A stretch of DNA of 64,000 nucleotides from Meiothermus sp. (GTDB lineage Bacteria; Deinococcota; Deinococci; Deinococcales; Thermaceae): the NCBI RefSeq assembly GCF_026004055.1, contig NZ_BPIJ01000002.1:621803-685802 (forward strand). The letters run 5' to 3'. Made by a program: the position numbers and the translations under genes. Under the pieces are notes generated by a model that had not been told where the DNA came from, searched no databases, and saw only the letters and a list, made by a program, of their open reading frames with translations. Below, one piece after another: positions 32,099 to 33,838 of this stretch (positions are counted from its first letter, which is position 1; each line of letters opens with the position of its first letter).

Positions 32099-33277
32099 CT
32101 ACCGCCCGCTTGCCAACTGCGGCCTGCCCAGGAAAAACACCAGCGCCAGCCCGATCAGGAGGGCCGAGAACACGTAAGGATAGGCCGGAGAAAGCCCGTA
32201 CAGCGAAGTGCCCACCACCGGCCCTAGCATCCGGCCCAGGGCCTGCGCCGCGCTAGAGAGGCCCGCCACCGCGCCTTGTTCGTCGTCAGAAACTGCCAAC
32301 GATTGCGCCGCCGTGAGGCCGGGGCTGGCCATGGAACCCAGCCCCAGCAGCACCAGCGAGGCGGTGAGCCACCCAAAACTGGGCGCAAACACCAACCCCA
32401 GGTAGCCTAGCAACAGCAGGGGCAATCCCAGACCCACCAGGGCCCTGGGGGGCCACCTGACCGCTCGCACCCAGACCCCCTGCACCAACACCCCCACCAC
32501 CCCAAACACCACCAGGGCCAGACCCACGGTCTGCGCGGTCTGGGCAGGGCTTAGCAAAAGACGATCCTGATACAAAAAGGCTACGGTTTGCTCCATGGCG
32601 ACGGAGGCCAGATTAATGGCCAGGCCCACCAGTAGCAAGGGCAGAATGCGGGGATCGTCCCAGGAAAGCCTGGGCGGGCTTTGGGGGCGATCTCGAGGCT
32701 TGCGTGACTCCGGCAAGACCCTCCACACAAATAGAGCATTCAAGAGTGCCAGGCTGGCCGAGAAAACCACAGGCGTCAGCAAACCAAAATGGGCCAGCCC
32801 CGCCCCAATGGCTGGGCCAAAAATCACCCCCAGACCGAAAGCAGCCCCTAGGATGGCAAAGTTCTGGGTGCGCTGCTCACGGGGGGTGATATCGGCCAGG
32901 TAAGCCTGGGCGGTGGGCAGGGTGGCCGAGGAAAAAGCACCGCCCAGCAGCCTTGTTGCTAACATCGAGCCAAACAGGCCCCACCCCAACAGCACCTTCT
33001 GGTAGCCCAGCCAGGCAAAAAAAGCGAACAAAAAGAAGCTGACCGCAAACCCCAGGATGCCCAACAGCAGGATGGGCTTGCGACCCACCACCTCGCTCCG
33101 GCGCCCCCAATAGGCCGAGAGCACAAACTGCATCAGGGCATAGCCGGTAGAAAACAACCCGACCTGCACCTCGCTCAGGCCCAGTTCGCGCGAGAGCGGC
33201 CCCAGGATGGGAAACAATACCGATAGGCCCAGAATACTGTTGAAGAGGGTGAGGAACAGTAACGAGAGCGGGTTCAC
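32099..33277 (-). CDS. MFS transporter (multidrug or sugar efflux type)
   Basis: 392 residues from GTG 33277 (NPLSLLFLTLFNSILGLSVL...), 12 predicted TM segments with the MFS loop 2-3 signature AYWGRRSEVVGRKPILL and a second-half repeat. It resembles the TetA/Bcr-like drug:H+ antiporter group (motif C-like GFGLGVIFGPAIGAGL in TM5). The frame stays open a further 63 codons upstream, but these cover a DnaA-box array and are not membrane-protein-like. A TACACT box is 8 nt upstream of the GTG; the box array starts about 40 bp from the GTG, so DnaA may affect expression (inference). Confidence 0.85.
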   Translation of the reverse strand: MNPLSLLFLTLFNSILGLSVLFPILGPLSRELGLSEVQVGLFSTGYALMQFVLSAYWGRRSEVVGRKPILLLGILGFAVSFFLFAFFAWLGYQKVLLGWGLFGSMLATRLLGGAFSSATLPTAQAYLADITPREQRTQNFAILGAAFGLGVIFGPAIGAGLAHFGLLTPVVFSASLALLNALFVWRVLPESRKPRDRPQSPPRLSWDDPRILPLLLVGLAINLASVAMEQTVAFLYQDRLLLSPAQTAQTVGLALVVFGVVGVLVQGVWVRAVRWPPRALVGLGLPLLLLGYLGLVFAPSFGWLTASLVLLGLGSMASPGLTAAQSLAVSDDEQGAVAGLSSAAQALGRMLGPVVGTSLYGLSPAYPYVFSALLIGLALVFFLGRPQLASGR

Positions 33278-33317
33278 GGTCAAATAGTGTACCGTCCCCA
33301 AAAACGGGTAGCGCTTC

Positions 33318-33360
33318 TGTGAATAAGCTGTGGATAAGTCTGTGGATAACCTGTGGATAA
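33318..33360. promoter_or_regulatory. Array of four DnaA-box-like nonamers
   Basis: TGTGAATAA (33318-33326) and three exact TGTGGATAA boxes (33329-33337, 33341-33349, 33352-33360), all in one direction and 11, 12 and 11 bp apart, with a further partial TGTGGA at 33364. TGTGGATAA is the complement of the consensus DnaA box TTATCCACA. No dnaA, dnaN or clear unwinding element is nearby. Confidence 0.75.
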
Positions 33361-33564
33361 CCCTGTGGAGGTTTCTACACCTGGCCCTGGGTCTTTGGCT
33401 TGGTTCACCCAAAATATACCGTCTTGGAGATGACAAATCTGCCCTGATCGCACTTCGTCCCGGCACCTCTTGACCAAGCAGACTTTCGCGGAGGCCGCTC
33501 CGGGCACCCGGCGACCAAAGCCAAGGGGCCAGAGAATCGTTTCCCTGGCCCCTGTGCCCTAATT

Positions 33565-33659
33565 TGGCGGAGGAGGGGGGATTCGAACCCCCGATAGGGA
33601 CTTTCGTTCCCTATAACGGTTTAGCAAACCGCCGCCTTCAGCCACTCGGCCACCCCTCC
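33565..33659 (-). tRNA. tRNA-Ser (GCT)
   Basis: On the minus strand GGAGGGG pairs with CTCCTCC (one G-U) in the acceptor stem, with G73 and an encoded CCA. The D arm has GGCCGAGTGG, the anticodon loop is TTGCTAA (anticodon GCT), the long variable arm TAGGGA-ACGAAAG-TCCCTA marks a class II tRNA, and the T arm is GGGGG-TTCGAAT-CCCCC. Confidence 0.95.
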
Positions 33660-33748: not shown

Positions 33749-33838
33749 TGGCGGAGGGAGAGGGATTCGAACCCCCGGTAGACTTGCGTCTACAACGGTT
33801 TTCAAGACCGCCGCTTTCAACCACTCAGCCATCCCTCC
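33749..33838 (-). tRNA. tRNA-Ser (TGA)
   Basis: On the minus strand GGAGGGA pairs with TCCCTCC, then G73 and encoded CCA. The anticodon loop is CTTGAAA (anticodon TGA), with a long variable arm (GTAGAC-GCAA-GTCTAC) and T loop TTCGAAT. It lies 89 bp upstream of tRNA-Ser(GCT), probably on the same transcript. Confidence 0.95.

Follow-up and report, generated by a model that had tools for sequence, protein, structure and literature searches.

The intergenic DNA between a pair of tRNA-Ser genes and a gene for an MFS transporter in Meiothermus contains four evenly spaced, same-direction DnaA boxes. From their sequence and conservation, we read this array with moderate confidence as a DnaA titration or oligomerisation cluster outside oriC, and as a candidate for timing and limiting the initiation of replication. 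Its retention among related species, in surroundings that have changed, suggests that it helps to set the time at which the chromosome is copied. The window, the whole 64-kb stretch that was analysed, corresponds to G000:C2:621803-685802, where G000 is the window's own genome of 3.18 Mb. Coordinates are those of the window unless a contig (C) or locus (L) is named, and box counts derive from pattern searches.

Structure of the array

The four boxes all lie on the forward strand and span positions 33318-33360. The first box is TGTGAATAA; it is followed by three exact copies of TGTGGATAA, with start-to-start spacings of 11, 12 and 11 bp. The pattern search agrees with the initial annotation, which had described one variant and three exact boxes in the same direction, 11-12 bp apart. 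The accompanying phrase "about one helical turn" is loose, since two successive boxes make up a 23-bp repeat. The array and its neighbours are as follows:

32099-33277, minus strand: MFS transporter (MFS_1), 392 amino acids, GTG start, the array's other neighbour
33318-33326, plus strand: DnaA box 1, TGTGAATAA, one mismatch, from the pattern search
33329-33337, plus strand: DnaA box 2, exact TGTGGATAA, identical in all seven array genomes
33341-33349, plus strand: DnaA box 3, exact TGTGGATAA, identical in all seven array genomes
33352-33360, plus strand: DnaA box 4, exact TGTGGATAA, identical in all seven array genomes
33364-33370, plus strand: box remnant TGTGGAG, 12 bp past box 4, missing from relatives
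33371-33375, plus strand: motif GTTTC, 19 bp from the start of box 4, present in six of seven genomes
33565-33659, minus strand: tRNA-Ser (GCT), transcribed towards the array, which is downstream of it in all seven array genomes
33749-33838, minus strand: tRNA-Ser (TGA), upstream of tRNA-Ser (GCT), in the same order in the array genomes

The position of the array is non-coding. Judged from the sequence comparison, the remnant at 33364 is probably non-functional. The GTTTC motif reads GTTTG in two array genomes.

The window contains no exact boxes other than the three of the array, where a third-order Markov model predicts 0.17 per window; for the genome, the same model predicts 8.3 and 37 were counted. 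Boxes with at most one mismatch number 13 in the window (5.4 +/- 2.3 expected), and none beyond the array is found within 1.5 kb of it. Exact triples with 11/12 spacing are expected at 5.6e-11 per genome under the third-order model, so the claim that such a run is not expected at random (~6e-11 in 3.18 Mb) holds. A reversed control pattern gave 0 pairs across 50 family genomes, while real pairs reach up to 8 per genome. The array is far more abundant in boxes than chance allows and is a DnaA-box cluster (DBC) outside oriC.

The origin of replication in the same genome

A single dnaA gene is located at about C2:510769-512118 and encodes 449 amino acids (PF08299 match, E 6e-31). Directly behind it, nine exact boxes form two runs that oppose each other; DnaA-trios (CTACTACTACTAATT) and AT-rich DNA come next. 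This locus, placed by dnaA, box density and DnaA-trios, is an ordinary oriC. Just upstream of dnaA, an opposed pair of boxes is present (C2:510727 and C2:510751); opposed boxes at the dnaA promoter fit dnaA self-regulation. Since dnaA and an ordinary oriC are found 143 kb away on the same contig, the array is not oriC, and its earlier description as far from dnaA is correct. The distance between array and oriC could be measured in two assemblies, and is 142.7 kb in G000 and 146.8 kb in G018, with the array to one side of dnaA in the first and to the other side in the second. In G000 (C2:505000-520000, L126), oriC is followed by rpmH-rnpA-like genes, while in G018 (L134) dnaN is found there; these neighbours suggest a rearrangement with one end at oriC.

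The same-direction run of the G000 oriC is made up of the same 9-mer at the same 11/12-bp spacing as the array. However, oriC also has an opposed run, DnaA-trios, an AT-rich element and an adjoining dnaA, and the array has none of these. All array boxes are on the plus strand, without opposed boxes; no DnaA-trios, which are present in the G000 oriC, were found at window positions 33200-33500; and no AT-rich unwinding element was found near the array, where the local G+C content is never as low as at oriC. The elements that would mark a secondary origin, a DnaA-trio and an AT-rich unwinding element beside the boxes, are thus lacking. The spacer letters of array and oriC were also compared, and their similarity was judged not meaningful.

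Conservation in the genus

An orthologue of the MFS gene was identified in each of 50 family genomes. The 1.5 kb upstream of it were read in 30 of them, 16 of which belong to the genus, and the tRNA-Ser pair was found in each of the 18 genus genomes. The array is present at the same locus in seven of these 18 genomes (G000, G007, G013, G014, G018, G019 and G020), always in the order tRNA-Ser(TGA), tRNA-Ser(GCT), array, MFS. The other 11 lack it at both loci, tRNA-Ser and MFS, and in genomes without the array the tRNA-Ser and MFS genes are not adjacent within the 1.5 kb examined. Conservation beside the tRNA-Ser genes, one of the checks proposed in the initial annotation, is seen at the tRNA-Ser(GCT)/MFS locus in seven genomes; the refuting condition named there, absence in sister strains, came out divided, with the array kept in 7/18 genus genomes and missing in the remainder. 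Being missing from 11 of 18 genomes, the array is not essential to the genus. On the MFS gene tree its distribution needs three changes, of which well-supported branches force only one; the tree is compatible with more than one history (one gain and two losses, or otherwise).

The three exact boxes are identical and in register in all seven array genomes. The weak box 1 is more variable: TGTGAATAA is retained in G000, G007, G013 and G018, G014 has AGTGAATAA, which is the box 1 variant with an altered first base, and the box is lost in G019 and G020, giving retention in five of seven. Over the four 11-bp bins that cover the array, mean pairwise identity among the seven genomes is 1.0, 1.0, 0.90 and 0.61; it is 0.45-0.58 in the 11-bp bins of the adjoining 33 bp with the GTTTC/GTTTG motif, and about 0.25-0.32, the random level, in most other flanking bins. 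Because the boxes are invariant while most of the flanks have drifted to the random level, they are under selection (a phylogenetic footprint), and by this comparison the array is maintained by selection among relatives.

Other DnaA-box clusters in the family

By the same kind of comparison, the array is one of several conserved clusters outside oriC in the family. Among 16 genus genomes read, 15 have an intact three-box cluster, with exact boxes 12 and 21 bp apart (G000:C2:541989-542030, L127; orthologues L132, L133 and L175-L187), and G012 retains two of its boxes. Nearly all genomes have orthologous genes on at least one side of it, and in nearly all a degenerate box and GTTTC come after it. 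Its distance to oriC is about 30 kb in G000, 52 kb in G009, 116 kb in G018 and 139 kb in G016; no RNA gene was found near the cluster.

In Thermus, a pair of exact boxes sits directly against the SRP RNA gene, at its 3' end (L138:5648-5668, L139:5245-5265, L188); the gene was identified as Rfam RF00169 in the three loci scanned. This pattern is present in 20 of 27 Thermus genomes, and the pair has the same orientation relative to the SRP RNA gene as the array has relative to tRNA-Ser. Its distance to oriC is 81-94 kb in seven of the eight genomes with both on one contig, and 284 kb in G028. Two further genera have a box cluster between trpF and tRNA-Asp/tRNA-Phe (L141:5283-5388 in G001, L143:5262-5333 in G003), at about 1.2 Mb (G001) and 0.66 Mb (G003) from oriC. 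In the genus genomes measured, clusters are less than 150 kb from oriC (range 30-147 kb); the trpF cluster of the other genera is beyond that.

Two box pairs within reading frames, at C2:169722 and C2:905539 (L124:2723-2743, L129:4540-4559), were excluded as evidence. They recur in the orthologous frames of relatives (L131 and L135; L136 and L140), and their conservation may be driven by the protein.

Exact boxes also occur in CRISPR leaders of Meiothermus and two related genera, as a palindrome of two opposed boxes (TTATCCACA-N5/6/7-TGTGGATAA), the dyad of which is mostly extended by flanking G/C. It is located about 100-105 bp from the core of the first repeat, and CRISPR repeats adjoin it in 16 of 18 loci examined (G000:C2:601350-601374, L128:4351-4375; G000:C1:939720-939744, L130:4221-4245; L195-L212). 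The palindrome was not found in 27 Thermus genomes, and a literature search returned no paper tying CRISPR leaders to DnaA. The palindrome may have nothing to do with DnaA and serve instead as a leader-binding or regulatory site.

Possible functions of the array

The initial annotation had offered four functions, of which a datA-like or titrating one is best supported; a DARS, an MFS promoter and an origin copy are disfavoured. As a DnaA-regulated operator, the array would let DnaA repress or activate the MFS gene, or attenuate transcription that arrives from the tRNA-Ser genes. Many bacteria use DnaA as a transcription factor, each of the seven array genomes has the MFS gene next downstream of the array, and in G000 the array sits 49-83 bp ahead of the MFS start codon, where an operator could plausibly lie. 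In the six other array genomes, however, it lies about 230-399 bp upstream of that start, the search of its intergenic region revealed no sigma-70-type promoter, and other lineages have the MFS gene without the array. An operator is therefore unlikely. A DnaA-controlled MFS promoter in particular fits poorly with a distance to the start codon that ranges over 83-399 bp while the array stays invariant, and the MFS gene is probably not the array's target. A copied or relic piece of an origin without function of its own is much less probable still: the same-direction 11/12-bp run at oriC is what such a piece would carry, but no DnaA-trio, AT-rich unwinding element or opposed array accompanies it, relatives retain the boxes alone, and boxes intact in seven genomes amid turnover of their surroundings do not look like a relic. 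Least probable, to the point of being barely tenable, is a DARS-like site that reactivates ADP-DnaA. The array is a compact multi-box cluster distant from oriC, as a DARS would be; however, in the three-box core of a DARS, box I faces the opposite way from boxes II and III (PMC5742627), whereas the array has its boxes on the plus strand throughout, with no further box of up to one mismatch found within 1.5 kb.

The array resembles datA of E. coli in being intergenic, in having same-direction boxes and in lying downstream of co-directional tRNA genes (PMC10950094, PMC5742627). In datA, every box that is essential points the same way (PMC5742627), as the boxes of the array do. In E. coli, the glyV-X-Y tRNA operon lies upstream of datA, and IHF binding at datA is reported to be controlled by read-through from this operon (PMC10950094). 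The spacing of the array is closer than that of datA, and the array is much nearer its origin than datA is (84.6 vs 94.7 min on the E. coli map; PMC10950094, PMC5295017). The likeness would be one of function, and no homology of the loci is claimed. A true datA analogue, in which hydrolysis of DnaA-ATP on head-to-tail boxes is switched by read-through transcription from tRNA-Ser, would accord with same-direction intergenic boxes downstream of tRNA genes transcribed towards them, and with the same relative orientation of the Thermus pair at the SRP RNA gene 3' end. Yet datA requires IHF, a heterodimer with two subunit genes, while G000, judged from gene content, has a single HU/IHF-family gene and no second one for such a heterodimer, which makes an IHF-dependent mechanism unlikely. 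The tRNA link is moreover post hoc, and the genus-wide three-box cluster has no nearby RNA gene. We consider a true analogue doubtful.

The favoured reading is a titration cluster. DnaA molecules would bind head to tail on the evenly spaced, same-direction boxes and be held there, leaving less DnaA for oriC, by which initiation would be timed and limited. The array may also promote ATP-DnaA oligomers and hydrolysis, as datA does. At about 143 kb from oriC, it would be duplicated soon after initiation, raising the binding capacity when re-initiation must be prevented. DnaA binding, titration and any effect on timing are what we infer from the boxes and their conservation. With four boxes against about 37 exact ones in the genome, the array is a modest DnaA sink, and it may be partly redundant with the three-box cluster. 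Titration strength depends on DnaA copy number.

Several observations in other bacteria agree with titration. Same-direction boxes at datA, and likewise at oriC, support head-to-tail DnaA assembly (PMC5742627). The DBCs of B. subtilis (Okumura et al. 2012, as described in PMC5295017) are likewise several clusters outside oriC per genome; they jointly delay initiation, with a strong effect only upon removal of all six, and the role proposed for them is likewise to bind DnaA and, once duplicated, to restrict what reaches oriC (PMC5295017). They belong to another phylum and have experimental support, whereas the array is known from its sequence, and its boxes are unusually regular (11/12 bp, one direction) compared with theirs.

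Implications for the Thermaceae

What is understood of the restraint on initiation once an origin has fired comes mainly from E. coli and B. subtilis. A literature search of incomplete coverage yielded no publication on DnaA-box clusters away from oriC in either Meiothermus or Thermus. DnaA-binding clusters of the Thermaceae might repeatedly have come to lie where stable-RNA genes end, at the 3' side of tRNA-Ser in part of Meiothermus and of SRP RNA in Thermus; there, growth-linked transcription of these RNAs would strip or limit DnaA and couple growth rate to replication timing, as an IHF-free, independent counterpart of the proposed E. coli tRNA-datA hub. We hold this rather improbable; the parallel is a lead only, as it was drawn post hoc and the three-box cluster has no nearby RNA gene. 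The clusters are small, well-defined targets for deletion, and the lineage includes the genetically tractable Thermus thermophilus. The Thermaceae appear to lack IHF, and conserved clusters in such a deep-branching, apparently IHF-less group would point to a widespread, IHF-independent sequestration of DnaA outside oriC.
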